This document shows, in pieces, positions 4,783 through 64,000 of a stretch of DNA of 64,000 nt. The stretch's first letter is position 1; every line of letters starts with the position of its first letter. A program made the translations under genes and the position numbers. Below the pieces are notes generated by a model. That model saw only the letters and a list, made by a program, of their open reading frames with translations. It was not told the DNA's origin and did no database searches. Location: the NCBI RefSeq assembly GCF_019599265.1, contig NZ_JAHZTC010000005.1, forward strand, positions 1 to 64,000, given 5' to 3'. The DNA comes from Pontibacter sp. HSC-14F20 (GTDB lineage: Bacteria > Bacteroidota > Bacteroidia > Cytophagales > Hymenobacteraceae).

Positions 4783-7101
4783 ATGAATAAACAACTACGC
4801 TCTATCGTTCTCGCTACCCTGCTGCTGGTACCTGTCTCTTTACTCGCACAAAAAAATGAGGTGCATTTTGAGCCGGAGGAACTGGCCAATCCGCTGATGG
4901 GCACTGATTCCAAAGTAAGTTTGTCCAATGGCAACACCTACCCGGCTGTGGCTGTGCCCTGGGGCATGAACCTGTGGACGGCGCAAACCGGCAAGATGGG
5001 CAATGGCTGGGCCTATACCTATAATGCGGACAAGATCAGAGGCTTTAAGCAGACGCACCAGCCTTCGCCCTGGATGAATGACTACGGTCAGTTTGTAATC
5101 ATGCCGGTGACGGGAAAACTCCGCTTCGACCAGGATGCCCGGGCCAGCTGGTTCTCCCACAAATCGGAAGTAGCCAAGCCCTATTACTACAGCGTATACC
5201 TGGCCGACCACGACGTCACTACTGAGTTCACACCTACAGAACGAGCTGCCCAGTTTCGCTTCACCTACCCCGCTACCGACAGCGCGTTTATCGTGATTGA
5301 TGCACTTGACAAAGGCTCTTTTGTGAAAGTTATACCTGGCGAGAATAAGATTGTAGGCTATACCACCAAAAATGCCCGTAGCAACCCCAAGGACTTCAAA
5401 AACCACTTTGTCATCTATGCAGACAAGCCTTTTACTATAGCCTATATCTGGCACGATTCCACGCTGGTAAAGGATAAGCTGGAAATGAACGCAAATCATG
5501 CGGGCGCCATTGTGGGATTCAAAACAGCGAAGGGTGAACAGGTGAAACTGCGCGTGGCATCGTCTTTTATCAGTCTGGATCAGGCCGAGCTCAACCTGAA
5601 GCGTGAACTGGCCAACGATGATTTTGAAACTACGAAGCGAAAAGCCAAATCTCTTTGGAACGAAGCCATGAGCCGCATTACCGTGGAGGGTGGTACCGAC
5701 GAGCAAATGCGTACCTTTTACAGCTGCCTTTACCGCACCCTGTTTTTCCCGCACAAAATGTACGAGCTCGATGCCAGCGGCAACCCGGTACATTACAGTC
5801 CTTATGACGGCAAGGTATATCCCGGCTACCGCTTTGCCGGCACGGGTTTCTGGGACACGTTCCGGGCCTTATACCCTTTTCTGAACCTGGCTTACCCGAG
5901 CATCAACACAGAAATGCAGGCTGGTCTGGTGAACGACTACAAAGAAGGCGGCTGGCTGCCGGAGTGGTCCAGTCCGGGCTATGCCAACATCATGATTGGC
6001 AACAACTCCGCTTCGGTGGTAGCCGACGCTTTCATGAAAGGCCTGCGTGGCTACGACATCAACACCTTGTATGAAGCGCTACTGCACGGTGCCAACAACG
6101 AGGGTCCGATCACGGCTATCGGTCGGGCTGGAGCAGACTACTATAATAAACTCGGGTATGTGCCTTATGATGTAAAGATAAACGAGAATGCAGCCCGCAC
6201 GCTGGAGTATGCCTACGACGATTTTGCCATCTACCAGCTGGCCAAAGCGCTGAACAGGCCGCAGGAGGAAATTAACCTCTATGCCAGACGCAGCCAGAAC
6301 TACCGGAATTTGTTTGACCCTGCTACAGGCCTGATGCGCGGCAAAAACCAGAATGGTACCTTCCAGTCACCCTTCAACCCGTTTAAATGGGGGGATGCCT
6401 TTACTGAGGGCAACAGTTGGCACTACAGCTGGTCCGTGTTCCATGATGTGCAGGGATTGATTGACTTGATGGGTGGCAGACAAAACTTTGTGGCGAAGCT
6501 GGATTCGGTTTTCAAGTTGCCCCCGCTCTACGACGAGAGCTACTATGGCAGTGTAATCCACGAAATACGCGAAATGCAGATTGCCAACATGGGCCAGTAC
6601 GCGCACGGCAACCAACCCATTCAGCATATGATCTACCTTTACAACTACGCCGGAGTACCTTGGAAAGCACAATACTGGTTGCGGGAAACCATGAACCGCA
6701 TGTACCAACCTACTCCCGACGGCTATTGCGGCGACGAAGACAACGGACAAACCTCTGCCTGGTATGTATTCTCAGCCCTTGGTTTTTATCCGGTTACGCC
6801 AGCCGTGAACCAGTATGTGCTGGGAGCACCCTTATTCAAAAAAACAACCATCCAGCTCGAAAATGGCAAAACGTTCGTGATCGAGGCCCCATCTAACAGC
6901 AAGGAAAATCTGTATGTACAGAAAGTGAGCCTCAACGGAAAAAAGCACGCGCAGAACTGGATCTCACACGAGGATATTCTGAAAGGCGGAAAACTAACAT
7001 TCGAAATGGGGCCTGTGCCTGACAAGAGCCGGGGCACGAACGAGCAGTCAGCGCCTTATTCTTTCTCTAACGACAAGACTGCCACACAGCACCTAAAATA
7101 G
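4783..7101 (+). CDS. GH92 family alpha-mannosidase-like glycosidase (Gln variant)
   Basis: The 772-residue protein opens with a signal peptide (about residues 1-22), so it acts in the periplasm or at the surface. GH92 landmarks are present: NGNTYPAVAVPWGM near the N-terminus, EGNSW with Glu542, and GDEDNGQTSAWYVF with ALGFYPV around 647-668. The conserved HGNEP motif reads HGNQP here (Gln611), whereas the second GH92 enzyme (10280-12598) keeps Glu. GH92 enzymes are calcium-dependent exo-alpha-mannosidases, and Glu-to-Gln variants exist with altered specificity, so the substrate may differ from that of its neighbour. A sugar permease gene follows after 27 bp, suggesting an operon for mannoside uptake. 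No strong ribosome site is visible. Confidence 0.9.
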   Translation: MNKQLRSIVLATLLLVPVSLLAQKNEVHFEPEELANPLMGTDSKVSLSNGNTYPAVAVPWGMNLWTAQTGKMGNGWAYTYNADKIRGFKQTHQPSPWMNDYGQFVIMPVTGKLRFDQDARASWFSHKSEVAKPYYYSVYLADHDVTTEFTPTERAAQFRFTYPATDSAFIVIDALDKGSFVKVIPGENKIVGYTTKNARSNPKDFKNHFVIYADKPFTIAYIWHDSTLVKDKLEMNANHAGAIVGFKTAKGEQVKLRVASSFISLDQAELNLKRELANDDFETTKRKAKSLWNEAMSRITVEGGTDEQMRTFYSCLYRTLFFPHKMYELDASGNPVHYSPYDGKVYPGYRFAGTGFWDTFRALYPFLNLAYPSINTEMQAGLVNDYKEGGWLPEWSSPGYANIMIGNNSASVVADAFMKGLRGYDINTLYEALLHGANNEGPITAIGRAGADYYNKLGYVPYDVKINENAARTLEYAYDDFAIYQLAKALNRPQEEINLYARRSQNYRNLFDPATGLMRGKNQNGTFQSPFNPFKWGDAFTEGNSWHYSWSVFHDVQGLIDLMGGRQNFVAKLDSVFKLPPLYDESYYGSVIHEIREMQIANMGQYAHGNQPIQHMIYLYNYAGVPWKAQYWLRETMNRMYQPTPDGYCGDEDNGQTSAWYVFSALGFYPVTPAVNQYVLGAPLFKKTTIQLENGKTFVIEAPSNSKENLYVQKVSLNGKKHAQNWISHEDILKGGKLTFEMGPVPDKSRGTNEQSAPYSFSNDKTATQHLK

Positions 7102-7128
7102 ATCTTCTAAAGCCTAACCTATACCTCC

Positions 7129-8547
7129 ATGCCACCGATCACGCCTGTTACGACTGAAGAAGCTGGTTCACAGCCTAAAGAAATTGCGCTGGATTATAAA
7201 AACTATACCTCTCCGCTGATTGTCGTTACGCTCCTGTTTTTTATGTGGGGCTTCATCACCTGCATGAACGACATCCTGATCCCGAAGCTGCAGGAGGTGT
7301 TTACGTTACAGCTCTGGCAGGCCATGCTCATCCAAACAGCCTTTTTCGGAGCCTACTTTATTGTGTCTTTTCTTTACTTCTTGTTGTCCATCACCAAAGG
7401 CGATCCCATCCAGAAAATCGGGTATAAGAATGGCATCATCATTGGGTTGATCGTGGCGGCACTTGGCTGCACCCTGTTTTACCCGGCGGCTTTGTTTCAT
7501 AGCTACAGCTTCTTTCTTATGGCCTTGTTTGTGCTGGCATCCGGCATTACGGTGCTGCAAATCACGGCCAACCCCTACGTGGCTATACTCGGTCCGCCTG
7601 AAACTTCCTCCAGCCGCATGAACCTGTCGCAGGCGCTTAACTCCTTTGGCACCACTATCGCGCCCATCATCGGCGGTTACCTGATTTTCGACCAGGTGGC
7701 ATCTGCCCAGATAGATACGGCCGAATCTGTGAAACTCCCCTATCTGGGACTTGCGGCGCTGCTGTTACTGTTGGCTTTGTTAATTAAATTGGCGAAACTC
7801 CCCCGGCTGGAGGGCAGCGGTATGATTGAGACCGGTGCTGTGGCTGTGAAACACCCGCATCTGGTGCTGGGCATCATCTGTATTTTCATGTATGTGGGTG
7901 GTGAAGTAAGCATTGGCAGTGCGCTGATCAATTACATTAAACTACCGCAGATTACGGGTTTGTCAGAGTCGGAGGCGAAGCATTACCTGGCCTTCTACTG
8001 GGGCGGTGCCATGATTGGTCGCTTTTTCGGGGCTGTAGCGCTGAGCACTTTGAGGCGCAGCGGAAAGTTTGTAGTTATGGCCCTCATCGCGCTTGTCACT
8101 TTCCTGACGGTATATCTGCTGTATGATCTCCAGCAGGCGCTGATCATACTTAGTCTGATCGCTCTGAATGTGTTCGTCTTGCTACTGGCCCGATTTATAC
8201 CTAACCGAACTGTGGGTTTATTTGCCATGGCCGTGATCGGGTTGCTGCTCATTGGCGTGCTGTCGGAAGGCTCGCTGGCTATGTGGGCGATCATCGCCAT
8301 CGGCCTGTTCAACTCCATCATGTTCCCCACCATTTTTGACCTGGCCATCAAAGGGCTCGGCCGGCATACCAGCCAGGGCTCTTCGCTGCTGGTCATGGCT
8401 ATTGTAGGTGGTGCCATTGTGCCGCCGCTGCAAGGTCTGTTCGCCGACCTGACTGGGAACCTGCAGCTTTCCTTTATCATCCCGATGATTTGCTATGCTT
8501 ATATTGTATATTATGGGTTTGTAGGATATAGAGTGAGGGAGGTGTAG
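7129..8547 (+). CDS. FucP/GluP-type sugar MFS transporter
   Basis: The 472-residue integral membrane protein has about twelve hydrophobic segments and motifs of the fucose/glucose-galactose permease subfamily: FFMWGFITCMNDILIPKLQ in the first helix, LQITANPYVAILG, and SRMNLSQALNSFGTTIAPIIGG. Family members import monosaccharides by proton symport across the inner membrane. It follows the GH92 gene by 27 bp, and a CTATACCT octamer ends 2 bp before its ATG. Free mannose or a related sugar released by the two GH92 enzymes is the likely cargo; that substrate is inferred from context. The stretch 8548-8648 downstream holds only repeat-like sequence. Confidence 0.88.
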   Translation: MPPITPVTTEEAGSQPKEIALDYKNYTSPLIVVTLLFFMWGFITCMNDILIPKLQEVFTLQLWQAMLIQTAFFGAYFIVSFLYFLLSITKGDPIQKIGYKNGIIIGLIVAALGCTLFYPAALFHSYSFFLMALFVLASGITVLQITANPYVAILGPPETSSSRMNLSQALNSFGTTIAPIIGGYLIFDQVASAQIDTAESVKLPYLGLAALLLLLALLIKLAKLPRLEGSGMIETGAVAVKHPHLVLGIICIFMYVGGEVSIGSALINYIKLPQITGLSESEAKHYLAFYWGGAMIGRFFGAVALSTLRRSGKFVVMALIALVTFLTVYLLYDLQQALIILSLIALNVFVLLLARFIPNRTVGLFAMAVIGLLLIGVLSEGSLAMWAIIAIGLFNSIMFPTIFDLAIKGLGRHTSQGSSLLVMAIVGGAIVPPLQGLFADLTGNLQLSFIIPMICYAYIVYYGFVGYRVREV

Positions 8548-8648
8548 GTGACGAATAAAAGCTCACCGGATGAGGACGAAATACCTTATCAAAACCTGCT
8601 GTCTTTTTTTGTCTGATACAGGATTATGAAGAATACACAGGATTCTCG

Positions 8649-8879
8649 TGTACGATGAAAATCCCTCTGCCCCTTTCAAAGGGGGACTTTCCGCCATTAC
8701 CAGAATCAGGTATAGGCGTTGTAGCTTCAGTAAAAATTCACACCACTGGCAGGTATAACAAGACTAACCTGCACGCTAGCTACGAAGGTATAGCTCAACC
8801 AGGTGCACCTTTTGACACTCCACTGTTGGGGGTGAAGGGGTCCCCCTGTCAAGAGCGTTCAGCGAGTGGGGGTAGGGGC
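8649..8879 (+). repeat. Dispersed intergenic repeat, copy A, left part
   Basis: This is the left part of a composite intergenic repeat also found at 26378-26720 and 28761-29215 and, inverted, at 37286-37550. Shared blocks include GTGTACGAT at the start, CCAGGTGCAC, a GGGGGTGAAGGGGTCCCCC hairpin and GAGCGTTCAGCGAGTGGGGG. The repeat is split by the IS4-family element that follows. Confidence 0.75.
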
Positions 8880-10115
8880 CACTACTGTTCGAAACCTTTT
8901 AAGGTACGTATTCTATGATAGGAATTTTATCGGGAAGGAGGTTGAGATGAAGGCAAAGGACTTATTGGCATTTATCCCTGAAGCGGATCTTTCGCAGCTG
9001 GCAGCCCAGACCCGGGTGGACCACCAGGTCAAGAAGCTCAGCGGGCGGGTGATGTTCCAGCTGCTGCTGCTCTCGCTGCTGGAAGGAGGCCGGGCGAGCC
9101 TTCGGGTGATGGAGGAGCTCTACTGCTCTATGCAGTTCCGGACCCTGGCCGATGTGGGGCAAGGGCAGACCACACGCCACAATTCCATCCGCGACCGGAT
9201 CGTGACCATGCGGCCCGACTTCTTCCGGGCCATCTTCGAGCTGCTCTTCAAGCGCTTCAACCGCCTGCTGGGCCAAGAGGGGGCGCTGGTGCGCTACGAC
9301 TCTACCCTGATCGCCGTCTCGGCCCGGCTGGTGGCCTGGAGCATGCGCACGCGTGCGGGCAGCAAGGACAGTGGCCAGCTCAAGTGCACGTTGGCCATGA
9401 AAGGCAGCCTGCCCTGCCAGGTGCGCGTGTTCACCAACCGCCAGGCCCTGAGCGAGGACTGCGCCCTGCCTGAGACGATCCTCTCGGAGGAGATCTCCCG
9501 CTCGGGCATCGTCGTCTTCGACCGGGGCGTGCAGTCGCGCAAAGCCCTCAAGGAGCTCGACGAGCGGGGCCGCCTCTTTGTCACGCGCTGCAAGGTGGGC
9601 TCCCACTGCATCGAGCAGGAGCTGCTGGCCGTGGGGCAGCGGCCCGAGGGGATGCCCCTCACCGTGCTGAGCGATGCCTGGGTGAGCTTCCGGGAAAAGC
9701 CCGGAAGCTACCTCGAAAAGCCCCTGCGCCTGGTCAAGGCCACCCTGGAATCGGGGGAGCCGATCTGGTTTGTCACCAACATCGCCTGGCTGGATGCCTA
9801 CCAGGTGGCTGCCCTCTACAAGGAGCGCTGGCAGATCGAGGTGCTCATCAAGTTCTTAAAACAGCACCTGCAGCTCGAGCACCTGGTCACCCGCAACGAG
9901 AACGGCATTCAGGTCATGCTCTACATGACCCTGATCGTGGCCCTGCTGCTCATCGTCTACCGCAAGCTCAACAAGCTCGACAGCGACCGTCGCGCCAAAC
10001 TGCGCTTTGCACAGGAGCTGGACGTGGAAATAGTCAGGCAAATCGTGCTGCTCTGCGGGGGAGACCCCGCTAAAATGGAGAAATTCGTCACCTGAACACG
10101 TTTCGAACAGTAGTG
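8880..10115 (+). mobile_element. IS4-family insertion sequence
   Basis: The element is 1236 bp with 16-bp perfect terminal inverted repeats (8880-8895 and 10100-10115). It is flanked by a perfect 9-bp target duplication GGTAGGGGC (8871-8879 and 10116-10124). Removing it and one duplication restores the uninterrupted intergenic repeat seen elsewhere in the window. It holds one intact transposase gene, and the clean ends and duplication indicate a recent insertion. Confidence 0.93.
8947..10095 (+). CDS. IS4-family DDE transposase
   Basis: The 382-residue transposase is intact. The ATG at 8947 is chosen because AAGGAGGT lies just upstream and because the longer reading frame would start outside the left terminal repeat. 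DDE features are a first aspartate in VRYDSTLIA, a second in VFDRGVQS, and the IS4 signature Y-x2-R-x3-E-x6-K within YKERWQIEVLIKFLK. The N-terminus (DLLAFIPEADLSQLA) is the short helical domain of this subgroup. Base composition is more GC-rich than the neighbours and the gene lacks the CTATACCT octamer. It is probably active, having no visible lesion. Confidence 0.93.
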   Translation: MKAKDLLAFIPEADLSQLAAQTRVDHQVKKLSGRVMFQLLLLSLLEGGRASLRVMEELYCSMQFRTLADVGQGQTTRHNSIRDRIVTMRPDFFRAIFELLFKRFNRLLGQEGALVRYDSTLIAVSARLVAWSMRTRAGSKDSGQLKCTLAMKGSLPCQVRVFTNRQALSEDCALPETILSEEISRSGIVVFDRGVQSRKALKELDERGRLFVTRCKVGSHCIEQELLAVGQRPEGMPLTVLSDAWVSFREKPGSYLEKPLRLVKATLESGEPIWFVTNIAWLDAYQVAALYKERWQIEVLIKFLKQHLQLEHLVTRNENGIQVMLYMTLIVALLLIVYRKLNKLDSDRRAKLRFAQELDVEIVRQIVLLCGGDPAKMEKFVT

Positions 10116-10250
10116 GGTAGGGGCCCTCGATTTGGAGGGTCTTGACTTTTTTGCCTACTGGGGCTAGGGGCCTCGATTTTTTTCTCAAGAAAAAAATAGG
10201 TGCCCGCCGCACAGGCGAAGCTATAAAACAATACTAGTTGCTATACCTGC
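10116..10250 (+). repeat. Dispersed intergenic repeat, copy A, right part
   Basis: This is the right part of the interrupted repeat: CCTCGATTTGGAGGGTCTTG, CTACTGGGGCTAGGGGCC, GCCCGCCGCACAGGCGAAGC and a terminal GCTATACCTGC. It matches the other copies block for block. Confidence 0.75.
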
Positions 10251-15303: not shown

Positions 15304-16269
15304 ATGAAACAGACAAGCTCCGCTGCCACTCCCACGGCACTCAGTAACTATCTGAAAAAGTTTAGCAAGTTGCGACAGGGCGTGACCAGGTATGGGAAGG
15401 CTCCACACAAGCCTGTGCTGCTGCTTACTTTTATTGAATTGTTTGAGAAGGCTGAGTTATCAGAAAACAAGGTATACATTTCACCAGAACTGGTAGCGAG
15501 GTTTAAAGAAATCTTTGCGTTACTCGTAAGAACAGCGCATACCTCTGATTTTTCATTGCCTTTTTATCACCTGGCAACTGAAGGTTTTTGGAATGTCAAA
15601 ACTAAGCTCGGCCCGACTCTTCATGTACACATTAAAAGCATCCATACCCTCAGCGAAGTAGTAGACTTCGGCTATTTTGCTGAAGACCTCTACACCCTAC
15701 TTCTGGATACAGAAGCTCGGAGTATTCTGAAAACTGCTATTCTTGACCATTATTTTCCGGTTACAAAAGCCGAATATCTCAATACTAAACAAGGTGGGTA
15801 TATCCAGAATCTTCAAAGCTATTTGCTCAACGAGAGTCCAGCAGGCTATACCCTGGAGTTGAACGAAACTGATGAAGAGGAAGCTTTTATACGAGGCGGT
15901 ATGTTCAAAAAACTAGTTCCTCAGGTATACAACCATACCTGCTGCATTTCAGGTATGCGGCTGGTTTCAAATCACGGATTTTCAATGATTGATGCCTGCC
16001 ATATCGTTCCTTTCAGCCTGAGCAAGGACGACAAAATCAACAATGGTTTGGCGCTCTGCCCTAACCTGCATCGTGCCTTTGACCGTGGCTTAATATCAGT
16101 TAATGAGAAGCTAAAAGTTCTGGTATCTGATGCGATAGCAGAAGATTTAACGAATGCCTATGCGCTTCTACACTTAAAAGGTAAGGGCCTAGCTCTACCT
16201 TTTGGAGCAAAACATTATCCAACTGCTTCTAATCTTGCCTGGCATCGCGAACATATTTTTAAAGGCTAA
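15304..16269 (+). CDS. HNH endonuclease with possible DNA-sulfur-binding N-domain
   Basis: The 321-residue protein has two parts. The C-terminal part (about 205-300) is an HNH_2-type nuclease: CCISG, DACHIVPFSLSKDD, NNGLALCPNLHRAFDRG. The N-terminal part (about 30-110) has GKAPHKPVLLLTFIELF and SDFSLPFYHLATEGFW, a pattern I associate with the sulfur-binding or recognition domain of restriction nucleases that cut phosphorothioate-modified DNA (ScoMcrA-like). That link is inference from memory. No methyltransferase, Dnd or SRA-domain gene is adjacent, so it would be a solitary modification-dependent nuclease. It stands alone after the VOC operon terminator. Confidence 0.72.
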   Translation: MKQTSSAATPTALSNYLKKFSKLRQGVTRYGKAPHKPVLLLTFIELFEKAELSENKVYISPELVARFKEIFALLVRTAHTSDFSLPFYHLATEGFWNVKTKLGPTLHVHIKSIHTLSEVVDFGYFAEDLYTLLLDTEARSILKTAILDHYFPVTKAEYLNTKQGGYIQNLQSYLLNESPAGYTLELNETDEEEAFIRGGMFKKLVPQVYNHTCCISGMRLVSNHGFSMIDACHIVPFSLSKDDKINNGLALCPNLHRAFDRGLISVNEKLKVLVSDAIAEDLTNAYALLHLKGKGLALPFGAKHYPTASNLAWHREHIFKG

Positions 16270-19764: not shown

Positions 19765-19768
19765 CGTT

Positions 19769-34424: not shown

Positions 34425-35298
34425 AGGGCGTATTTTTAGAGAATCATTTTGAACCTGAGCGCAATAAACAGTAGCCCGAAAAGAAGAGCCCGTTTACTGC
34501 CTATCAGTTGAATGTGTCATCATATTGAGTATAGTATGATCTGCACGCCTTATCGTTTAAGGAATGCCGCTTTGCTTGTTTATCTGGAACCTGCGCTAAG
34601 GCCAGGCCTTTGGTAAGTACTGAGGCTGTGTGCTCATGCACAGGTTTGCGGGCAGGAAATGTGTACGCGTACACATGAAGCAGGGCGCCGCTTTCCATTG
34701 CCCGGAACAGGGGAAGAGTGGCTTGGCGACAAAATGGGCTGTCCCCTGTGCCCTATGTTATGCTATACGTAGATTTTAACTTTTGTATGGTCGGGTGCGG
34801 CCCCTCTTTATTTGCAGAACAGTGCACCTGCATTTTAAATTCAAAATTGGTAATATATTATAACTTCACATCTATACGTATTCTAAATAGGATTGTCTAT
34901 ACCTATACCTTTTGTTGTAGGCAAGGTATCTCTGACATGATTTTCAAAAATGCACAAGAAATAACTAAACTTAGGACAGATACCGCTTTTAAGAGGAGGC
35001 CTCGATATCTACGAAATCATCATCAAGTTCACGTAGCCTATACCTGAAGAACGCCGGCTCTTCAGTTGCAGAACTTTAATGCGCTGAATTGCGACGGTGC
35101 TGAGGCTCGAACGTTTACGAAAGGCGCTACAGGAGTAACGTTTATAGTCTGCGGACAGGTTACGTTTGGAATCACACTGTTTACCGTCGGGGTCTTTTAA
35201 TCATGCCGGTGTTTAGATTGCGGAGCTAAAATCCGGGATTGGGTGGTTTAGAGTAATAGAATGTAGCCTTCTGGCCAGGGAATGAGTATAGATGATAA
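34425..35298. other. Long intergenic region, no clear gene
   Basis: About 870 bp lie between divergent prkA and a small rightward gene. A 64-codon leftward frame (34504-34698) has biased composition and no recognisable motif, so I do not call it. Overlapping CTATACCT octamers occur at 34895-34908, written as a tandem CTATACCTATACCT, and another at 35037. Promoters for prkA and the small gene should lie here but no clear consensus was found. Confidence 0.4.
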
Positions 35299-37658: not shown

Positions 37659-39584
37659 CTACAGCACCCGCATTTCGATGCGGCGGTTTTGACTGCGGTT
37701 TTCGTCTGAAGTGTTTGGTTTAACCGGGCGGTTCTCGCCGTGACCTACGGAGGTGATACGTTCCTTCGGTACTTTGTTGCTGCGCAGGTAGTCGGCTACG
37801 GAACGGGCGCGTCGCTCAGAGAGTACTTTGTTATCAGCATCGGAACCAATGTCATCGGTGTGGCCTGATATTTCGATCTTAATAGAAGGATTTTGCTGCA
37901 TGAAAGTGATGAGCTTATCGAGCTCTGTTTTTGACTCACGCTCCAGCTTGTATTGTCCAGTGTCGAAGAACAGGTTGTTGAGCACTATGGCTGCGCCGGA
38001 TTTGATCGGCTTCAGGTATACGTCGAGCACTACCGGGTCTAGTGACTTGTGTGAGGTATAGTCAAAGCTCAAGCTGTTCATCAGGAAACCAGGTGCTGAT
38101 ACGTAGAGACCATACTGTCGCCCTTCAGATAACACAATGGTATACTCTCCTGATACTTTGTCGGAGTTTACCTGCTGCACCAACGAGTCGGCGCTTACAT
38201 CGTATAGCTGCACCACCGCAGCAATAGGCTTCTTGGTATCAGCATGGTAAACGCGACCCTGGGCGTAAGTGCTTTTCACTTTGCTGCGCCAGTTTTCAGG
38301 CACGTCCAGTTCGTAGAGTTGTATGGTAGAGGCGCCGGCTTCGGTCATTTCCTGGCGGGAGTAATAGCCTTTTTTGTTATCGGCAGTAATGAATAGCGAA
38401 CCTTCGTCGGCGTGTGTGTTCAATGGGTAGCCCATGTTCTCGGGCGTACTCCACTTACTTCTGTTGTCCTGCGTGGTCATAAACACGTCGAGGCCACCCA
38501 TACCTAAGTGCCCGTCGCTCACAAAGTAAAGTGTGCTCCCACTCACGTGGATGAAAGGGGCCATGTCACGGCCTTTAGAATTCACAGTTTCGCCCATATT
38601 CTCGGGCTTTTGCCACGACCCGTCTTCATTTAACCGTGTTACCCAAATATCTTCTTTGCCAATACCTCCCGGCCTGGTAGATGTGAAGTATAAGGTGCGC
38701 CCGTCAGCAGACAGGCTGGGCTGTGAGTCCCAGGCTTTGGAGTTTACGATGGTGCCCATGTTCTTGGGTTTGCTCCACTCGTCACCGCTCCTGAAAGAGA
38801 TGTAAAGATCACAGTCGCCCTGGCTGTCGGAACGGTTGCAGGAAGTGAACACAATAGTTTTGCCGTCACCGGAAATAGTAGCGGCTCCTTCGTTGGCGGT
38901 CGTGTTGATGGAAGGTGATATAGAAGTCGGCGGGCTCCATTGGTTATCGCGGTACTGACTCACAAATATGTTCTCGTCTTGGTCAGGGCGATGGCCGGCA
39001 CGTGCTGTAAAGATTAGGTGACGCTGGTCGGCAGTGGTGGAAGGAAAGTACTGCAGCTCGAAGCGATTGACGTTTTCGGGAAGTCTGACCGGATTAAAAC
39101 TCACCGGTTTCTTCATCGCTTCCGCAGCAAAATCAGCGGACTGAATCTGCTGACGGGCGAAGTCTGTCATGCGGCCATTTCGAGGCTTGCCACGCAGGAA
39201 AAACTCGAAGTTTTTGCGGGCGTTCTCGTAATCGCCCCGCTCAAAGTACAGGTCGGCCAGGTCGAAGTAGCTGTTCATCAAACCAGCATGAAAGGGTTTG
39301 AGGGCCAAGCCTTTCTGCAGGTTTTCAAATACCTCCGGTTTATTGCCCATGGCCCGGTGCAGGTGCGCTATTTTGAGGTAGGCGTCGGCATACTTTGGAT
39401 CGCGCTCTATCGCCTCGTCGAGGTAAGTGAGTGCCTTGTTAAAGTCGCGGGCCTGTGCGGCTTCTTCAGCTTTGTAGTAGAGTGTAACTGCTTTTCTGGA
39501 ATTGGAGGCTGGTCGAACCTGTGCCAGGCAAGTGGTCGCTATACTTAGGGTGATCAGAGTCAGAAGAAGCAGTGGCTTAAGCAT
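37659..39584 (-). CDS. PorE-like OmpA-family protein (TPR, PD40, CRD, OmpA)
   Basis: The ATG at 39584 is chosen because the longer frame overlaps queE and this one starts with a signal peptide (MLKPLLLLTLITLSIATTCL). The roughly 641-residue protein has four parts: TPR (about 35-135; YADAYLKIAHLHRAMGN), a PD40 beta-propeller (about 190-440; DSQPSLSADGRTLYFTSTRP), a carboxypeptidase-regulatory domain (about 465-535) and a C-terminal OmpA peptidoglycan-binding domain (LSERRARSVADYL, SVGHGENRP). This is the order of PorE, which links the type IX secretion machine to peptidoglycan, though several paralogues exist per genome. The start lies 5 bp after the queE stop, indicating an operon. Confidence 0.87.
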   Translation of the reverse strand: MLKPLLLLTLITLSIATTCLAQVRPASNSRKAVTLYYKAEEAAQARDFNKALTYLDEAIERDPKYADAYLKIAHLHRAMGNKPEVFENLQKGLALKPFHAGLMNSYFDLADLYFERGDYENARKNFEFFLRGKPRNGRMTDFARQQIQSADFAAEAMKKPVSFNPVRLPENVNRFELQYFPSTTADQRHLIFTARAGHRPDQDENIFVSQYRDNQWSPPTSISPSINTTANEGAATISGDGKTIVFTSCNRSDSQGDCDLYISFRSGDEWSKPKNMGTIVNSKAWDSQPSLSADGRTLYFTSTRPGGIGKEDIWVTRLNEDGSWQKPENMGETVNSKGRDMAPFIHVSGSTLYFVSDGHLGMGGLDVFMTTQDNRSKWSTPENMGYPLNTHADEGSLFITADNKKGYYSRQEMTEAGASTIQLYELDVPENWRSKVKSTYAQGRVYHADTKKPIAAVVQLYDVSADSLVQQVNSDKVSGEYTIVLSEGRQYGLYVSAPGFLMNSLSFDYTSHKSLDPVVLDVYLKPIKSGAAIVLNNLFFDTGQYKLERESKTELDKLITFMQQNPSIKIEISGHTDDIGSDADNKVLSERRARSVADYLRSNKVPKERITSVGHGENRPVKPNTSDENRSQNRRIEMRVL

Positions 39585-39589
39585 AGCTT

Positions 39590-40243
39590 TTACGGAATAT
39601 CCATGTACTTGTGTGTCTGCAAGGACACACGCCATTGGGGGTTGTTTTTAACGTATTCGACAATAAGTGGCATCAATTGCCCGGCTTTGCTCCACTCCGG
39701 CTGCAGGTATAGCTTACAGTCAGCTCCCACTTTTGCCGCATGCGCTTCTGCCCACGCAAAATCCGATTTGTTAAATATAATGACTTTTAGCTCATCTGCA
39801 AAAGGATAGACTGAAGCATCTGGTGCCTTGAACTTCTTTGGAGACAAACACACCCAATCCCAGTGACCGCTCAAAGGATAAGCCCCGGAGGTTTCGATCA
39901 TGGTGCGTATACCTGCCTCCTGCAATCCGGCTGTCAGCGGGTTGAGGTTGTAGAGCAAAGGTTCGCCACCTGTCACTACGACAGTTTTGCCGGGAAAGGT
40001 TGTGGCCGTATTAACAATTTCATATATAGGCGTGAGCGGATGCTGTTCAGCGTCCCAACTCTCTTTTACGTCGCACCAGTGGCAGCCCACATCGCAGCCG
40101 CCAAGCCTGATAAAATAAGCCGCTGTGCCGGTGTTACCACCCTCTCCCTGAATGGTATAAAATGCCTCCATCAACGGAAGTTCGCTGCCATCTTTAGGCA
40201 CTGTATGAATCGAGGCGGTTTTGTATGCTTTTGTCGTTTCCAA
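39590..40243 (-). CDS. queE: 7-carboxy-7-deazaguanine synthase
   Basis: The 217-residue radical SAM enzyme makes CDG, the ring-contraction step of queuosine/7-deazapurine biosynthesis. The radical SAM cluster motif CDVGCHWCDV (C-x3-C-x2-C) is present, with FYTIQGEGGNTGTAAYFIRL and VVVTGGEPLLY. Family members are short and dimeric. It heads a two-gene leftward operon with the PorE-like gene 5 bp downstream. No other queuosine gene (queC, queD, queF) lies in the window. I saw no preQ1 riboswitch-like motif upstream. Confidence 0.94.
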   Translation of the reverse strand: METTKAYKTASIHTVPKDGSELPLMEAFYTIQGEGGNTGTAAYFIRLGGCDVGCHWCDVKESWDAEQHPLTPIYEIVNTATTFPGKTVVVTGGEPLLYNLNPLTAGLQEAGIRTMIETSGAYPLSGHWDWVCLSPKKFKAPDASVYPFADELKVIIFNKSDFAWAEAHAAKVGADCKLYLQPEWSKAGQLMPLIVEYVKNNPQWRVSLQTHKYMDIP

Positions 40244-41685: not shown

Positions 41686-43470
41686 TTAGTCGAGTTTAAG
41701 CACAGCTAAGAAGGCTTCTTGCGGAATTTCCACGTTGCCTACCTGGCGCATGCGCTTCTTACCTTTTTTCTGTTTTTCGAGGAGCTTGCGTTTACGCGAA
41801 ATGTCACCGCCGTAGCACTTGGCCAATACGTTTTTGCGCAGGGCCTTCACTGTTTCGCGGGCGATGATCTTCTGTCCGATTGCTGCCTGAATGGCAATCT
41901 CAAACATCTGGCGTGGTAGCAGCTCACGCAGCTTTTCGCACAGGCGCTTGCCCCAGTCGTAGGCTTTGTCGCGGTGCACGATAGCACTCAGCGCATCCAC
42001 TTTCTCGCCGTTCAGCATCACGTCCAGCTTCACCATGTTCGACTGGCGGAAACCGATCAGCTCGTAGTCAAGCGAGGCGTAACCTCTGGAAATGGTCTTC
42101 AGTTTATCAAAAAAGTCGAATACGATCTCTGCAAGCGGCATCTCAAAAGAAAGCTCCACGCGGTCGCTGGTCAGGTATGTCTGGTTTTTAAGGATACCGC
42201 GCTTGTCCATACAAAGCGAAATGATCGGGCCCACGTACTCTGCCTTTGAGATGATCTGCGCCTTGATAAAAGGCTCCTCGATGTGGTCGATGTAATTGGG
42301 TTCCGGCATTTCGGAAGGCGCATTTACCTTCACCATGTCGTTTTTGGTAGTATAGGCATGGAACTGTACCGACGGCACGGTTGTGATCACCGTCATGTCA
42401 AATTCACGCTCCAGACGCTCCTGCACGATCTCCATGTGCAGCATTCCCAGGAAGCCGCAACGGAAACCGAAGCCAAGTGCTGCTGACGTTTCAGGCTCCC
42501 ATACCAGCGAGGCATCGTTCAACTGCAGCTTCTCCATGGAAGCGCGCAGCTCTTCGTACTCGCTTGTTTCTACCGGGTATATACCGGCAAATACCATTGG
42601 CTTCACGTCTTCGAAACCCTGTATACCTGCAGCAGGACGGTCGACATGTGTAATGGTATCGCCTACTTTTACTTCTTTGGCGTTCTTTATACCGGAAATC
42701 AGGTAGCCCACATTACCGGCAGCCATCTCCTGGCGTGGTTCCTGGTTCAGTTTCAGTACCCCGATCTCGTCTGCTTCGTAGGTTTTGCCGGTGTTGATGA
42801 ACTTTACCTTCTCCCCTTTCCTGAGTGTACCATTATAAATCCGGAAATAGACCTCAATGCCTCTGTAAGAGTTAAACACCGAGTCGAAAATCAAAGCCTG
42901 TAGCGGAGCGGCAGGATCGCCTTTGGGAGCAGGTATACGCTCGCAAATGGCGCTCAGAATATCTTCTATACCTATACCTGACTTTCCGGAGGCATGGATA
43001 ATATCTTCTTTATCACAGCCGATCAGATCGATGATCTGGTCACTTACCTCTTCGGGCATGGCGTGCGGCAGGTCAATCTTGTTCAATACCGGGATAATCT
43101 CCAGGTCAGAGCCAATAGCCAGGTATAGGTTCGAAATAGTCTGGGCCTCTATACCTTGCGAAGAGTCAACGATGAGCAGCGCACCCTCGCAGGCGGCGAT
43201 GGAACGGGATACTTCATAAGAGAAGTCGACGTGGCCTGGCGTATCGATCAGGTTCAGTACGTAATCCTCTCCTTTATAATGGTAATTCATCTGGATAGCG
43301 TGGCTCTTGATGGTAATGCCGCGCTCACGCTCCAGATCCATGTTGTCGAGCAGCTGGTTTTGCATTTCACGCTCAGCCACTGTAGACGTAAACTCCAGCA
43401 GGCGATCGGCCAGGGTGCTTTTACCGTGGTCGATGTGGGCGATGATGCAGAAATTGCGAATGTTCTTCAT
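41686..43470 (-). CDS. lepA: Elongation factor 4 (LepA)
   Basis: The 594-residue translational GTPase has G1 [11 protein letters not shown]2 RGITIKSH, G3 DTPGHVDF and G4 NKIDLP, followed by EF-G-like domains and the LepA-specific C-terminal domain ([40 protein letters not shown]). LepA acts on stalled ribosomes and initiation. The start [18 protein letters not shown] is standard. It has its own transcriptional unit, leftward, between folD and the PAS-LuxR gene. CTATACCT octamers fall inside it (42966, 42972, 43120, 43149), a sign it is native. Confidence 0.98.
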
Positions 43471-44522: not shown

Positions 44523-47500
44523 ATGCAAATTACTAAAATAGAGCCATATAAGCCCGTTAACCATATTCGTATCGTAACGGCAGCCTCCCTGTTCGACGGG
44601 CATGATGCATCCATTAACATCATGCGCCGCATCATTCAGGCCTCCGGCGCCGAGGTGATTCACCTGGGCCACAACCGCTCCGTACAGGAGATCGTGGACT
44701 GCGCCGTGCAGGAAGATGCCCAGGCCATTGCCATTACCTCGTACCAGGGTGGTCACCTGGAGTACTTCAAATACATGTACGACCTGCTAAAAGAGCGCGG
44801 CTGCGGCCATATCCGTATTTTCGGCGGCGGCGGCGGGGTAATTCTACCCACTGAGATCGAGGAACTGCACGAATACGGGGTTGCCCGCATCTACTCCCCT
44901 GACGACGGCCGCGCCATGGGCTTGCAGGGTATGATCAACGACATGCTGGAGAAATGCGACTTCCCGACGGGCAAAGACCTGAATGGCGAGGCCAGTCACC
45001 TGCGCGATAAAGATCCAAAAGCTATTGCCCGCCTGATCTCGGCAGCAGAAAACTTCCCGGAAGAAGCCCGCAGTATTCTGAATGAAGTAAGAGAACAGGC
45101 CAAAGAAGTAAAAACGCCGGTGCTAGGTATAACAGGTACAGGGGGTGCAGGTAAATCATCTTTGGTAGATGAATTGGTGCGCCGCTTCCTGATAGACTTC
45201 CCTCAAAAGAAAATCGCCATCATTTCGGTAGATCCGTCGAAGCGTAAAACAGGTGGCGCTTTGCTTGGTGACCGTATACGCATGAACTCGATCTCGAACG
45301 AGCGGGTATACATGCGCTCGCTGGCCACGCGCCAAAGCAACCTCGCCCTGAGCAAGTATGTGCAGGACGCGGTGGATATCGTGAAGGCCGCAGATTTTGA
45401 CATGATCATCCTCGAAACATCCGGTATAGGCCAGTCAGATACCGAAATCATTGAGCACTCGGACATGAGTTTGTATGTGATGACGCCGGAGTACGGTGCC
45501 GCCACGCAGCTCGAGAAGATCGACATGCTCGACTTTGCTGATGTAATCGCCCTGAACAAATTTGACAAGCGCGGTGCCCTCGACGCCCTGCGTGACGTGA
45601 AAAAACAATACAAACGCAACCACCAGCTGTGGGATGTGAGCGACGAAGAGATTCCGGTTTTCGGCACCATTGCATCGCAGTTCAACGACCCGGGCATGAA
45701 CCAACTCTACCGTGCCGTGATGGCCAAGCTGAGCGAGAAAACCGGCGTGGAATTTAACTCCAACCTGCAGACTTCCAAAGAGATGTCGGAAAAGGTGTTC
45801 ATCATCCCTCCTGCCCGTACCCGCTACCTGTCTGAAATCTCCGAAACCATCCGCAGCTACGACAAGTGGACGAAGGATCAGGGCGAGATTGCTCAAAAAC
45901 TCTACGGCATCAAGAAGTCGATTGAGGCGGTGCAAGGTATAGAGGTCGAAGACAAAGACCGCCTGATCAAGCAACTCGAGCAGGCTTATGCCGAAGTAGA
46001 GCTGAGTCTGGACGGGCAGAACAAAAAAATTCTTGAGAACTGGAAAGAGAAAGTACAGGCTTACAAGAATGAGTTCTATATCTTCAAGGTGCGCGATAAA
46101 GAGCTGAAAATCAAGACACATACCGAGTCGCTTTCTCACCTGAAAATTCCGAAAGTTTCTACGCCACGCTACGAAGCATGGGGTGATTTACTGAAGTGGA
46201 ACCTGCAGGAGAATGTGCCGGGCGAGTTCCCATACACAGCGGGTGTGTTCCCGTTCAAGCGCGAAGGCGAAGACCCGACCCGTATGTTTGCCGGCGAAGG
46301 CGGACCGGAGCGTACCAACCGTCGCTTCCACTATGTGAGTTTGGGGATGCCAGCCAAGCGTCTGTCTACCGCCTTTGACTCGGTAACATTGTACGGCGAA
46401 GACCCCGATTTCAGACCAGATATTTATGGTAAGATTGGTAACTCCGGCGTGAGCATTTGCTGCCTCGACGATGCCAAGAAGCTGTACTCCGGCTTTAACC
46501 TGGCTGATCCGATGACTTCGGTTTCCATGACCATCAATGGTCCGGCTGCGATCCTGACCGGCTTCTTTATGAACGCTGCCATTGATCAGCAGTGTGAGCT
46601 TTACATTAAAGAGCACGGCCTGGAAGATGAGATCAACCAGAAAATTGAGGCTATTTACAAAGAGAAAGGTACAGCACGTCCGCAGTACCAGGGCGAGTTG
46701 CCGAAAGGCAACGATGGCTTAGGCCTGATGCTCCTCGGCGTAACCGGCGACCAGGTGTTGCCGGCTGAGGTATACGAGCCGATCAAAACGCGTACATTGG
46801 CAGCAGTGCGCGGTACTGTGCAGGCCGATATCCTGAAAGAAGACCAGGCGCAGAATACGTGTATTTTCTCCACAGAATTCTCGCTGCGTTTGATGGGTGA
46901 CGTGCAGGCTTACTTCATCGACAAGAACGTGCGTAACTTCTACTCGGTTTCCATCTCGGGCTACCACATTGCAGAGGCGGGTGCCAACCCTATTTCGCAG
47001 TTGGCCTTCACACTGGCAAACGGCTTTACGTTTGTAGAGTATTATGTGAGCCGCGGCATGGACATCAATAAGTTTGCGCCGAACCTGAGCTTCTTCTTCT
47101 CCAACGGTATCGACCCGGAATACGCGGTGATTGGTCGCGTGGCGCGTAGAATCTGGGCGAAAGCGATGAAGCACAAGTATAACGCCGATGCCCGTTCGCA
47201 GATGCTGAAGTACCACATCCAGACGTCCGGTCGTTCGCTGCACGCGCAGGAAATCGACTTCAACGATATCCGCACCACACTGCAGGCACTGTATGCAATT
47301 TATGACAACTGTAACTCACTGCATACCAATGCTTATGATGAGGCGATCACGACGCCAACCGAAGCATCTGTACGCCGTGCCATGGCGATTCAGCTGATCA
47401 TCAACCGGGAGTTAGGACTAGCGAAAAATGAGAACCCGCTGCAAGGCTCGTTCATCATCGAAGAACTGACCGACCTGGTGGAAGAAGCTGTATTAACGGA

Positions 47501-47909
47501 ATTTGACCGCATCACAGAACGTGGTGGCGTGTTGGGTGCTATGGAAACCATGTACCAGCGTGGTAAGATACAGGAGGAAAGTCTGTATTACGAAACACTG
47601 AAGCACACGGGCGAATATCCGATTATCGGCGTGAATACGTTCCTTTCGTCAACTGGCTCCCCTACGGTGTTGCCAACAGAAGTAATCCGTGCTACCGAAG
47701 AAGAAAAGCAGTACCAGATCTCAATGTTACAATCGCTGCAACAGCGCAATGCGGATAGATCTGCCGAAATGCTAAAGCGCATCCAGCAGGTGGCCATCAA
47801 CAACGGTAACATCTTTGAGGAGATGATGGAAACAGTGAAATTCTGCTCGCTGGGCCAGATCACCAATGCCTTGTTTGAGGTAGGCGGACAGTACCGCAGA
47901 AATATGTAA
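44523..47909 (+). CDS. icmF: Fused isobutyryl-CoA mutase (IcmF)
   Basis: The 1128-residue fusion has the IcmF domain order: N-terminal B12-binding domain (1-150; [11 protein letters not shown] with lower-ligand His27, and SYQGGHLEY), a MeaI-type G-protein chaperone (about 200-420; [21 protein letters not shown]-loop) and the C-terminal acyl-CoA mutase barrel (about 550-1128; [20 protein letters not shown]). It interconverts isobutyryl-CoA and n-butyryl-CoA in valine or branched-chain fatty-acid breakdown; some family members also handle other short acyl-CoAs. It stands alone and ends in a strong terminator; a TATATTCG-like -7 box is near 44490. Confidence 0.93.
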
Positions 47910-59636: not shown

Positions 59637-59700
59637 CAACCCTTTACTGCTTTATTAAACTGTTTTTTTTGTAAAAGGTTTACTATACTGTCAGTCAGTA

Positions 59701-60168: not shown

Positions 60169-60467
60169 GGTCTATGCATTATCCGGTAAACGATCAATTT
60201 TGAAGGGCATTAAAAAATCTGTATCTGCTTAAACTACAATAGCCGTGGATTGTTTTAATTGCGTATAAAAAGTAACATTTTTACTCAATATTGCAATATC
60301 AAGCTGATTCCCAGATGCCATATAACGAATAACCAGTCTGAATGTTGGATGCATTCAGCATAATATTTTAGACTATATAGCGAAGTTTCGGGATTTCCTG
60401 TAACTTATACCCTTGTACCAGTGCCCTATCACAAGAATTTGAAGTAAATCTCAAACCGCCGCCTTAC
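60169..60467. other. Intergenic region
   Basis: This A+T-rich stretch lies between the divergent Gre-like and T9SS type B genes. No gene or clear promoter consensus; presumably the promoters of both lie here. Confidence 0.35.
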
Positions 60468-62657: not shown

Positions 62658-62662
62658 CCCGA

Positions 62663-63289
62663 TCAGGCCATAAACAGAATGACCAGGTATAGCGAAAGCC
62701 AGAGTGCTCCCAGAAAGTGCCAGTACGTGTTGAGCATGGATAGCTGCAGTCGTCGGTAAGGGTCGCGGATAAAGATCAGGCTGCGGACGCCATCGCCTGC
62801 CATGTGCGCTGTTTTGATCAGCAGGAAAGCCAGAAAGATCATACCGCCCAACAGGTGCAGCAGGTGCAGTGCCGTGATCAGGTATAGGTAACTGCCCGAG
62901 GCTTTGCCGGTAAAGTAGGCACCGGATAAGGTCAGTTCACGCCAGCCCAGAATCTGGGCTCCGATAAAGGCAACTCCCAGCAGAAATGTCAAGGCCAGGT
63001 AGCGGGTCATTTTGCGGAGCTTGTCTTTTTTGTAAATGCGGGGGATCTTGCTGATCGTGTAGCTGCTAAAGAGCAGAATCAGCGTGCTTATACTGAAAAA
63101 CTTAGGAAGAGAGAACTGTTCGCTACCGAAACCGCCCGTCCGTACGAAAGCCACCACCAGCACAAAGAACAGCACGCCTATACCTACCATGCTCAGGTAT
63201 AGCAGCATCCGGATCGGGTGCAGATGCTCTATTTTGCCAAATGCTGAGCCCTGGCGTGCGTCTACCTTCTTCTTTCTGTCCTGGTTCAT
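62663..63289 (-). CDS. Cytochrome c oxidase subunit III-like protein
   Basis: The 208-residue membrane protein has about five hydrophobic segments. Subunit III motifs: FGKIEHLHPIRMLLYLSMVG at the start, and HLLHLLGGMIFLAFLLIKTA with MLNTYWHFLGALWLSLYLVI near the end, with conserved His and Trp-His. It is short for subunit III, as often in Bacteroidota, where the first helices are reduced. The rest of the oxidase operon is not adjacent within the window, so its complex is presumed. Leftward, convergent with the T9SS type B gene. Confidence 0.87.
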   Translation of the reverse strand: MNQDRKKKVDARQGSAFGKIEHLHPIRMLLYLSMVGIGVLFFVLVVAFVRTGGFGSEQFSLPKFFSISTLILLFSSYTISKIPRIYKKDKLRKMTRYLALTFLLGVAFIGAQILGWRELTLSGAYFTGKASGSYLYLITALHLLHLLGGMIFLAFLLIKTAHMAGDGVRSLIFIRDPYRRLQLSMLNTYWHFLGALWLSLYLVILFMA

Positions 63290-63584
63290 GTCGAGTCATC
63301 TCCCCGAGCATACCCGACTTATGGCTGCGGGCCTCCTCTGTTCAATTTGAAATTCAGGTAATTTATCCTATTCTATATACCAACTACAGGAGGTTATAGT
63401 TTTGAAAATACTTCACAAAAAATAAGATTTAGCGGTCTTATTTATTCTCCAAACAAAGTTATACCTGCTCAGGGCAGCATACTGCTAATTCCGGGGAAAT
63501 TTACCAGGATAAAAGCTTAGCCCCTGCTTTACCTTTCATGGCTGTTTTGCGTTAGCACAATTACATGCTACCATAAGCCCGGTT
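63290..63584. other. Intergenic region
   Basis: No gene seen between the divergent cytochrome oxidase gene and the last gene. Confidence 0.4.
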
Positions 63585-64000
63585 ATGACCAAATTTCTAC
63601 TGTCTGTACTTTGTTTTCTACTGATTGCTGCAGGCGCACAGGCACAGCAACCGCCTATACCTTACACGGCCAATAACACCATGCAAATCAGCCTGGAGGG
63701 AGAGCGCAGCACTTACGACTTTCAGTCGACCAAAATGCTGGTGCGCTACGACGAGAACACCCGCAAAATTGAGTGCCTCCTCCCCATCGAAAACCTGCTG
63801 CCAGCCAACGATTCCAGTCCGGTAGCCATGGTGCAGGACATCTTTTTTGCATCTCGTTATCCAGAGTTGTACATTGAGGTCGAAGCGCCGATCGAGCAGC
63901 TCAATGCCGGTAAACGAAACAGGCAGACACTGAACAGCAGAGTTTTCATCAACATCCAAGGCATTATCAAAGAAATGGTTATCCCGGTCACCTTCACGCC
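63585..64000 (+). CDS. Secreted YceI-like protein (truncated by window end)
   Basis: The frame starts at ATG 63585 with a signal peptide (MTKFLLSVLCFLLIAAGAQA) and runs open to the end of the window, giving about 138 codons. The visible part has alternating strands (NTMQISLEGERSTYDFQSTK, LYIEVEAPIEQLNAG, NIQGIIKEMVIPVTF), resembling the lipocalin-like YceI family, which binds isoprenoids in the periplasm. The family link is tentative because the C-terminus is missing. Confidence 0.5.
   Translation, partial: MTKFLLSVLCFLLIAAGAQAQQPPIPYTANNTMQISLEGERSTYDFQSTKMLVRYDENTRKIECLLPIENLLPANDSSPVAMVQDIFFASRYPELYIEVEAPIEQLNAGKRNRQTLNSRVFINIQGIIKEMVIPVTFT

Follow-up and report, generated by a model that had tools for sequence, protein, structure and literature searches.

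The question raised by this locus is why one short word saturates it. The comparisons below suggest that the word, CTATACCT, is probably one of the dialects of an uptake signal for self DNA, used in natural transformation by an environmental genus of the Hymenobacteraceae, where three dialect words were found: D1, CTATACCT; D2, TTATACTT; and D3, CTATAGTT.

Saturation of the window and genome

In the window, meaning the whole 64-kb stretch of DNA analysed, CTATACCT occurs 79 times on both strands between positions 5013 and 63662, and the decamer GCTATACCTG 19 times, which are the copy numbers estimated in the first-pass annotation. The 8-mer count is indeed far above chance, as 100 dinucleotide shuffles of the window gave a mean of 1.27 and a maximum of 4, ruling out dinucleotide use as the source of the excess. 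The copies lie in genes and in spacers, as had been claimed, and codon use was also ruled out, since 100 synonymous-codon shuffles of the 36 genes that hold 43 of them gave a mean of 2.62 and a maximum of 7. The features of the window referred to here are as follows.

5013..63662, both strands: 79 copies of CTATACCT (dialect D1), 43 in 36 listed genes and 36 outside
43121..43128, minus strand: D1 site spanning Leu-Tyr-Leu codons within lepA (gene 41686-43470, minus); orthologue comparison
45935..45942, minus strand: D1 site in the 1128-residue gene 44523-47909; orthologue comparison
38054..38061, minus strand: D1 site in gene 37659-39635 (minus); orthologue comparison
34897..34910, plus strand: overlapping direct pair CTATACCTATACCT; another at 42966-42979
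1..5012, no strand: motif-free left end containing a group II intron (word scan and Rfam)
861-935 and 2561-2678, minus strand: Rfam matches to the group II intron
923-2026, minus strand: reverse transcriptase/maturase gene of the group II intron
8866..10095, plus strand: DDE transposase gene with no site inside; nearest sites at 8708, 8786, 10241 and 10270

Saturation had been ascribed to native DNA in particular, and this fits both the transposase gene and the left end, where the intron and its neighbours (bases 1-5012) contain no CTATACCT. The best 10 of 566 plasmid records resembling that end matched group II intron maturases only, and no plasmid record resembling the transposase region was found.

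The enrichment extends to the whole of the window's own genome, with 5041 copies of the 8-mer versus 133 of the reversed string used as a control, and 1456 versus 7 for the decamer. In 604 kb, comprising the window and 27 stretches from other CTATACCT genomes, the word ranked first among 8-mers when scored with an order-3 Markov model (611 observed, 49.5 expected); a maximum-order model (611 versus 519) was uninformative because the motif itself saturates its sub-words. One-mismatch neighbours at positions 3-7 numbered only 2-38 against the 611, so the word is sharply defined, and little further information surrounds the dialect words. Biased mutation, or a short repeat that is mobile, with no reader at all, could account for a high count taken alone, but the rarity of near neighbours and the sparse information beyond the word, together with the ungapped orthologous sites and dialect-dependent spelling of identical codons described below, make this explanation scarcely credible.

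With gene positions taken here and in later analyses from a simple ORF caller, word density was 2.5 to 5 times higher in noncoding than in coding DNA, and for D1 and D2 it was highest in convergent gaps and lowest in divergent gaps, where promoters are located. The noncoding excess, and a TATA core with flanks that would suit a dimeric binder, could be explained if the words were binding sites for a regulatory or nucleoid protein that has drifted in specificity from lineage to lineage. The low density in divergent gaps argues against such sites, as do the thousands of copies found within genes and the scarcity of the D2 word in the second contigs sampled (three plasmid-like 15-kb stretches only; 6 copies found versus 32.6 expected), and we consider this origin very unlikely.

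Part of the copies of the established uptake signals DUS and USS are paired in transcription terminators. The terminator loops mentioned in the first-pass annotation do hold single sites, but enrichment there was not found: terminator-like hairpins contained 8 of 169 noncoding D1 sites versus 502 of 12253 (4.1%) noncoding 8-mers, and 6 of 258 noncoding D2 sites versus a background of 4.5%.

Among the roles offered earlier, an uptake signal is the best fit, and a chromosome-segregation role is disfavoured; strand counts were unbiased on the G020 chromosome (189 versus 220, p 0.14), although moderately biased on the large contig of G014 (166 versus 233, p 0.0009). The same counts bear on a Chi-like recombination signal, in which a RecBCD/AddAB-type enzyme would have changed specificity between lineages. 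Chi-like sites have an orientation bias along the chromosome, and a short, over-represented, lineage-specific word, asymmetric in D1 and D2 and biased in G014, would suit them; the unbiased G020 chromosome, the tendency of D3 to a palindrome and the link to a ComEA-like gene, which this idea does not predict, make it an improbable one. Whole counts of the dialect words were even between strands, and for this reason the placing of all individually listed matches on one strand is taken as an effect of the listing.

Dialects across the genus and the origin of sites

Comparison with related genomes, proposed earlier as a check, found CTATACCT shared by several relatives as one of the three dialects. 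Among 50 genomes of the genus, 12 were saturated with CTATACCT, 23 with TTATACTT (4 mixed genomes in which CTATAGTT is also present, and 19 D2 genomes besides) and 8 with CTATAGTT; 39 thus carry one or two of the words in 907 to 8208 copies, and 11 lack any. Across 154 genomes of other genera of the family CTATACCT counts were 12-212. Dialect labels were clustered on the lepA tree, requiring 11 changes versus 27.0 when shuffled, and none of 200 shuffles was as low. The dialects follow phylogeny with exceptions, such as G017; G217, mostly D2 with some D3, is a poor fit to the picture proposed here.

All three words have TATA as a common core. D1 and D2 are non-palindromic and D3 is partly palindromic, often being extended to AACTATAGTT (logo of 129 TATAGTT matches). 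This extension would favour a process like that proposed for the cyanobacterial HIP1, in which a DNA methyltransferase and biased mismatch repair make and keep the sites and the methyltransferase present sets the dialect. As described in PMC4390886, HIP1 shows similar saturation, alternate forms in some lineages, and genomes in which the word is absent or nearly so, with ties to methyltransferases. The HIPs described there are palindromic, unlike D1 and D2, and a methyltransferase origin does not predict the link to a competence-type, ComEA-like protein; we regard it as unlikely, if less so than the other alternatives.

Orthologous sites indicate how the words originate. At one place in lepA the amino acids are Leu-Tyr-Leu in 50 of 50 genomes, and their codons are spelt CTATACCTG or TTATACTT according to dialect, giving CTATACCT in 8 of 12 D1 genomes and TTATACTT in 8 of 19 D2 and all 4 mixed genomes. 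At the place equivalent to 45935..45942, 2 D3 genomes have CTATAGTT and 4 D2 genomes have CTATACTT, and at that equivalent to 38054..38061, 5 D2 genomes have TTATACTT. Gaps were seen in 0 of 344 orthologous D1-site comparisons, which rules out origin by insertion or as a mobile repeat; as read from these alignments, the origin of dialect sites is by substitution.

Conservation depended on dialect. Where amino acids were unchanged, D1 sites were intact in 40 of 71 comparisons within D1, versus 34% for other 8-mers, and so were better conserved at orthologous sites inside the dialect. Outside it the outcome was divided: sites were kept worse than other 8-mers in D2 genomes (8 of 78 versus 25%) and in those without a dialect word (5 of 55 versus 21%), and about as well in D3 and mixed genomes (4 of 19 and 5 of 18). 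These counts omit alignment edges, leaving 84 D1 pairs versus 91 in the earlier spelling comparison. D1 words at orthologous places were above codon-use expectation in every group of genomes, as ancestry or ascertainment would give.

Dialects by species group, origin by substitution and dialect-dependent conservation are what make an uptake signal the best fit, along with the scarcity of the word in three plasmid-like contigs and the tracking of dialect by the type of a ComEA-like protein.

Competence genes and a candidate reader

The ComEC, DprA and helix-hairpin-helix (HHH) families are present in 50 of 50 genomes. The 11 genomes without a dialect word keep these genes free of stops, so having them is not enough to produce the signal. 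The three are broken together in exactly two genomes, G000 and G021, the window's own genome being included. No decay of the word was detected in the window's own genome (near-miss/perfect ratio 0.53 versus 0.47, p 0.54), so, with three genes lost and the word undecayed, current use of the signal in that genome need not be assumed. In G021 the density of TTATACTT (2537 in 5.5 Mb) is lower than in G011 (3552 in 5.0) and G022 (5124 in 4.6), a difference only suggestive of decay after competence-gene loss. A search for a PilB/PilT-type ATPase (PF00437) in the 50 genomes gave only pieces of 38-66 residues, which scored barely above cut-off in 3 of them.

The HHH protein, of about 313 residues, has three helix-hairpin-helix repeats and a predicted membrane anchor, and resembles ComEA. 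It scored 169.5 bits against HHH_3 repeats and 94.4 bits against TIGR00426, the ComEA repeat region (cut-off 53.1), and ComEA structures (8dfk, 8dss, 2duy) are among its four structure matches. Unlike ComEA, it falls below the cut-off of TIGR01259 (comEA; 106.2, cut-off 152.35), has three repeats, and finds its best structure match in EEPD1 (9yi2).

The HHH tree, which covers 40 of the 50 genomes (absent are G007, G021, G024, G033, G036, G207, G208, G210, G214 and G216) and takes in just 5 of the 11 without a dialect word, places the 12 D1 rows in a single clade (100/99) and G017, G206, G030, G212, G026, G032 and G211 in another (100/100). G017 carries CTATAGTT and a D3-type HHH protein, yet adjoins the CTATACCT species by lepA. 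The lepA data reject both the seven-genome clade (p-AU 0.005) and a grouping of G017 with G030 and G212 (p-AU 0.0017), and the HHH data reject D1 with G017 and G006 (0.00026) and also D1 with G017. The lepA data are compatible with a single D1 clade (p 0.21), and D1 therefore gives no contrast between the genes. Of 780 pairs, G017-G030 and G017-G212 rank highest for HHH likeness beyond that of lepA, whereas two other genes of these pairs are only 74-80% identical.

A likely DNA-uptake gene thus seems to have moved between species along with the dialect spelling. The link between HHH protein and dialect comes mainly from one firm transfer, that of G017, the lepA place of G206 not being firm, and the HHH candidate was picked after the score ranking had been seen. 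The moved block may exceed the gene, because the 3' flank of the G017 gene likewise has matches in G212 (75.5% over 294 bases) and in G030 (68.4% over 509) and none in any D1 genome. On the 3' side, which was the side examined, the next gene was rejected as a candidate because it differs between many genomes, although one such gene is common to G017, G030 and G212, and also to G003. A reader gene linked to the HHH gene is possible.

Proposed mechanism and known signal systems

We infer the uptake preference, the identity of its reader and the direction of causation between gene and dialect from these patterns. A competence protein located beyond the inner membrane would prefer DNA bearing the word, and fragments from kin that carry it would be taken up and recombined more often. 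Copies born by point mutation would spread where they are cheap, in noncoding DNA and synonymous codons. If the reader were altered, or gave way to one acquired from another species, a different spelling would be favoured and sites would be slowly rewritten, which would account for dialects and mixed genomes. The strongest candidate for this reader, or for a component of it, is the membrane-anchored ComEA-like protein. More tentatively, and with odds somewhat against, it could itself be the sequence-specific reader of a Bacteroidota system without a type IV pilus, its transfer alone switching the dialect and re-routing gene flow, with G026, G032 and G211 caught in mid-switch.

In the excerpts of the literature surveyed, the uptake-signal systems named come from the Neisseriaceae and the Pasteurellaceae, in both cases with a link to type IV minor pilins. 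The DUS of Neisseriaceae, which has dialects (PMC3630211) and is read in those excerpts by the minor pilin ComP, resembles the present case in its thousands of short-word copies, in dialects built on a common core (TATA in the present words) and in a distribution following phylogeny. It differs in phylum and in terminator enrichment, absent here, and here no PilB/PilT-type ATPase was found, the reader proposed is an HHH protein resembling ComEA rather than a pilin, and the uptake role is read from sequence. The Pasteurellaceae USS, for which excerpts of PMC12616744 propose the minor pilin PpdA/ComN as reader, likewise has divergent signal types and a coevolution argument for its reader; it differs in its word, in its phylum and in the type of reader proposed, and its argument drew on many orthogroups, whereas ours compares two genes by tree. 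In the description given by PMC3879209, HHH motifs bind DNA irrespective of its sequence, from which a sequence preference, if real, would depart.

No uptake signal of Bacteroidota was described among the matches listed in open-licence PubMed Central titles and abstract openings, the open-licence papers listed there as containing the letters CTATACCT were seemingly unrelated, and a term search of PMC2843746 gave no mention of uptake or dialect words. If true, this would be a third uptake-signal system, in another phylum and apparently pilus-free, whose three dialects and mixed and word-free genomes would allow testing of the origin, spread and switching of such signals. Having a candidate gene for the reader would open signal-receptor coevolution to direct test, and the dialects yield predictions of gene exchange among species of the genus.

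A further close case is the natural transformation of Riemerella anatipestifer, also of the Bacteroidota, in which ComEC, DprA and an HHH protein are reported as essential in excerpts of PMC8459023; proteins of all three families occur here, the HHH protein being matched at family level. The term "uptake sequence" is absent from the main text of that paper. One further protein reported there as essential has a DUF5689 domain; as a dialect-linked candidate it was rejected, being present in 22 of 50 genomes in a pattern not matching the dialects. The shorter DUF5689 proteins examined adjoin SusD-like or other genes.

Abundance and dialects of the word

The first-pass annotation's claim that CTATACCT saturates the window was confirmed by 79 copies, against 1.27 in shuffled sequence, as was its count of 19 for the extended decamer form GCTATACCTG. 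Throughout the genome of the window (G000; 4.64 Mb in 97 contigs) there were 5041 copies of CTATACCT and 1456 of GCTATACCTG, compared with 133 and 7 copies of their reversed forms. Codon use, named in that annotation as a possible cause, left the excess standing (43 copies in 36 window genes vs. 2.62 after synonymous shuffling), and the expected-count check on 8-mers that it proposed ranked CTATACCT strongest in 604 kb comprising the window and 27 stretches from other CTATACCT genomes (611 copies vs. 49.5 expected). In the same 604 kb, neighbors of CTATACCT altered in the core were scarce, with more tolerance at positions 1, 2 and 8. The favored frame around the word was G-C-TATACC-T-G, and flanks beyond it added little information.

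The family search covered 204 genomes, 50 from the window's genus (G000 among them) and 154 from other genera. Within the genus, CTATACCT reached 2823-5222 copies in 12 genomes and 173-833 in the remaining 38; counts in the other genera were 12-212, never above roughly 3.4 times the control of the same genome. A citrate synthase scan supplied 80 named loci (1.47 Mb; nearly all Bacteroidota by title), in which CTATACCT occurred 32 times, versus 69 for the reversed control. The closest named citrate synthase was that of Hymenobacter (80%), which together with G+C and genome size makes Pontibacter the probable genus. Single 20-kb samples from three genomes of other genera over-represented GGGTAGG (L126, G070; 27 vs. 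2.9), AATATTT (L123, G064; 64 vs. 14.2) and GGTGTAG (L135, G219; 19 vs. 2.0), which are perhaps further genome-wide signals.

Saturated alternative words were first found in samples of CTATACCT-poor species and then confirmed by genome-wide counts: TTATACTT at 2125-7030 copies in 23 of the 50 genus genomes, CTATAGTT at 907-8208 in eight, and both together in G026, G032, G211 and G217. We refer to the dialects with CTATACCT, TTATACTT and CTATAGTT as D1, D2 and D3, and to genomes with the latter two words as mixed. Eleven of the 50 carried none of the three at a saturating level ("none" genomes: G002, G007, G023, G024, G025, G027, G033, G036, G210, G214 and G215), a label that includes mild excesses of the D2 word in G007 (1201 vs. 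252) and the D1 word in G036 (751 vs. 158). On a tree of all 50 genomes built from lepA, our comparison gene for kinship (1782 aligned bases in each), the dialect labels required 11 changes, compared with 27.0 when shuffled, and 0 of 200 shuffles was as low.

Some smaller observations concern other spellings. Two samples of G036 (L114 and L225; 40 kb) were enriched in TTATACCC (14 vs. 1.1) and TTTATACC (16 vs. 1.8), perhaps a fourth dialect. In each of the 12 D1 genomes CTATAGTT was less frequent than the reversed string (for instance 91 vs. 171 copies in G000), a pattern that avoidance of the other spelling would give; it also fell short of this control in some D2 genomes. About 24 TACTATACT-like words within the 20 kb of sample L092 (G012:C1:1-20000) are probably a local repeat array.

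How sites arise and are kept

One lepA site encoded Leu-Tyr-Leu in all 50 genomes. It was spelled CTATACCT in 8/12 D1, 1/4 D3 and 1/11 "none" genomes, TTATACTT in 8/19 D2 and 4/4 mixed genomes, and CTGTACCT in 5/11 "none" genomes. At the positions of window D1 sites across 14 window genes, with expectations from codon use, D1 genomes had the D1 word in 45/91 comparisons (1.17 expected), D2 genomes the D2 word in 15/112 (0.57) and D3 genomes the D3 word in 3/35 (0.03), while "none" genomes had the D1 word in 6/102 and the D2 word in 1/102. The D1 word also exceeded expectation in D2 (8/112 vs. 1.49), D3 (4/35 vs. 0.59) and mixed genomes (6/24 vs. 0.59), as expected from shared ancestry and the window-based choice of sites. 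The proposed conservation check, restricted to unchanged amino acids, found D1 sites intact in 40/71 comparisons within D1, against 34% for other 8-mers; they were less conserved than other 8-mers in D2 (8/78 vs. 25%) and "none" genomes (5/55 vs. 21%), and similar to them in D3 (4/19 vs. 24%) and mixed genomes (5/18 vs. 24%). Gaps fell at D1 sites in 0 of 344 comparisons.

From these sequence comparisons we infer that the word is maintained by some DNA reader that varies from dialect to dialect. By analogy it seems to work like an uptake signal: in genomic properties the genus words are like those of both Neisseriaceae and Pasteurellaceae, but the pilus part of those systems was not seen in a search for its ATPase, where PilB/PilT-type matches in the genus genomes were only pieces of 38-66 residues. 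The strongest rival to an uptake signal is a putative HIP-like methylation mechanism behind the words.

A candidate reader and its phylogeny

A ComEA-like helix-hairpin-helix (HHH) protein was suggested as reader by a match list, in which seven D3-rich genomes stood on top for this protein. It has an N-terminal anchor followed by three HHH_3 repeats, scores above the cut-off of the ComEA repeat model and under that of the full comEA model, and has EEPD1 and three ComEA-type chains as relatives of solved structure. In 39 of 40 rows the N-terminal leader is basic and is followed by G/A-F-S-Q-x-E and then by hydrophobic residues; in G000 the stop falls in this region. This N-terminus may be prepilin-like. 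HHH motifs reportedly bind DNA irrespective of sequence (PMC3879209), so word specificity in the candidate reader would be new, or due to a partner.

In a study of Riemerella anatipestifer, transformation required ComEC, DprA, ComF, RecA, an HHH protein and three further proteins (PMC8459023). The ComEC, DprA and HHH families each occurred in 50/50 genus genomes, and all three were broken in exactly two, G021 and G000, which suggests that they act together. G021 has stops within both comEC and dprA, and its HHH gene is fragmented into short pieces. G000 has two stops and a frame change in comEC, which matches over just some 516 of 709 residues; its dprA is split in two and carries stops, and a stop lies within its HHH leader. 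The broken competence genes of G000 lie at:

G000:C76 (sampled stretch L273)
G000:C13:17460-18072
sampled stretch L297

Beyond the comEC remnant is a transposase gene with 92.6% DNA identity to the window element at about 8799-10117. The open comEC frame of G017 measures 561, versus 702-736 in other unbroken genomes. Among the matches listed, none of the comEC, dprA or HHH genes of the 11 "none" genomes had stops.

In the HHH tree of 40 genomes, all 12 D1 rows formed a single clade (100/99), as did G017, G030, G206, G212, G026, G032 and G211 (100/100), whereas lepA grouped G017 with the 12 D1 rows and G006 (100/99). lepA rejected both the seven-genome D3-type grouping (p-AU 0.005) and G017 + G030 + G212 (p-AU 0.0017), and HHH rejected D1 + G017 + G006 (p-AU 0.00026). 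With both trees limited to these 40 genomes, the D3 label changed three times on lepA and once on HHH, and all five labels 10 and 6 times. G017-G030 and G017-G212, the top two among 780 pairs, were 93% and 92% identical in HHH versus 85.4% in lepA and 74-80% in two other genes; the 3' flank of the G017 HHH gene was likewise similar to those of G212 and G030. Because the HHH likeness of G017 conflicts with its lepA placement and other genes reach 74-80%, the D3-type HHH gene, perhaps with neighbors, was most likely transferred between lineages, with the dialect accompanying it. The order might be the reverse, a species switched otherwise taking up D3-marked DNA and thereby gaining the gene. G026, G032 and G211 combine the D3-type protein with the two words and appear to be switches under way. 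G217, mostly D2 with 907 D3 words, fits the link poorly, its HHH protein being long-branched and outside the D3 clade. D1 provides no contrast, since lepA is compatible with a single D1 clade (p 0.21).

Layout along genomes

Words were denser in noncoding DNA (2.06, 2.78 and 5.44 per kb in D1, D2 and D3, the last from 60 kb only) than in coding DNA (0.83, 0.61 and 1.05). Terminator-like hairpins were not enriched in words. Convergent gaps were richest (D1 4.31, D2 4.52 per kb) and divergent gaps poorest (1.53, 2.37). Within genes the D1 word ran along the gene 279 times and opposite 149 times; strand checks by GC skew gave 189/220 in G020 (p 0.14) and 166/233 in G014 (p 0.0009), where the skew itself is weak. 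Close pairs were over-represented, with 44 of 583 D1 gaps at 30 bases or less (19.4 expected), and many are overlapping core arrangements. Second contigs of three near-complete assemblies, inferred to be plasmids and sampled over their first 15 kb, gave D2 word counts of 2, 1 and 3, against expectations of 10.4, 6.7 and 15.5. A gene at window 15304-16269 encodes an HNH_2 endonuclease domain.
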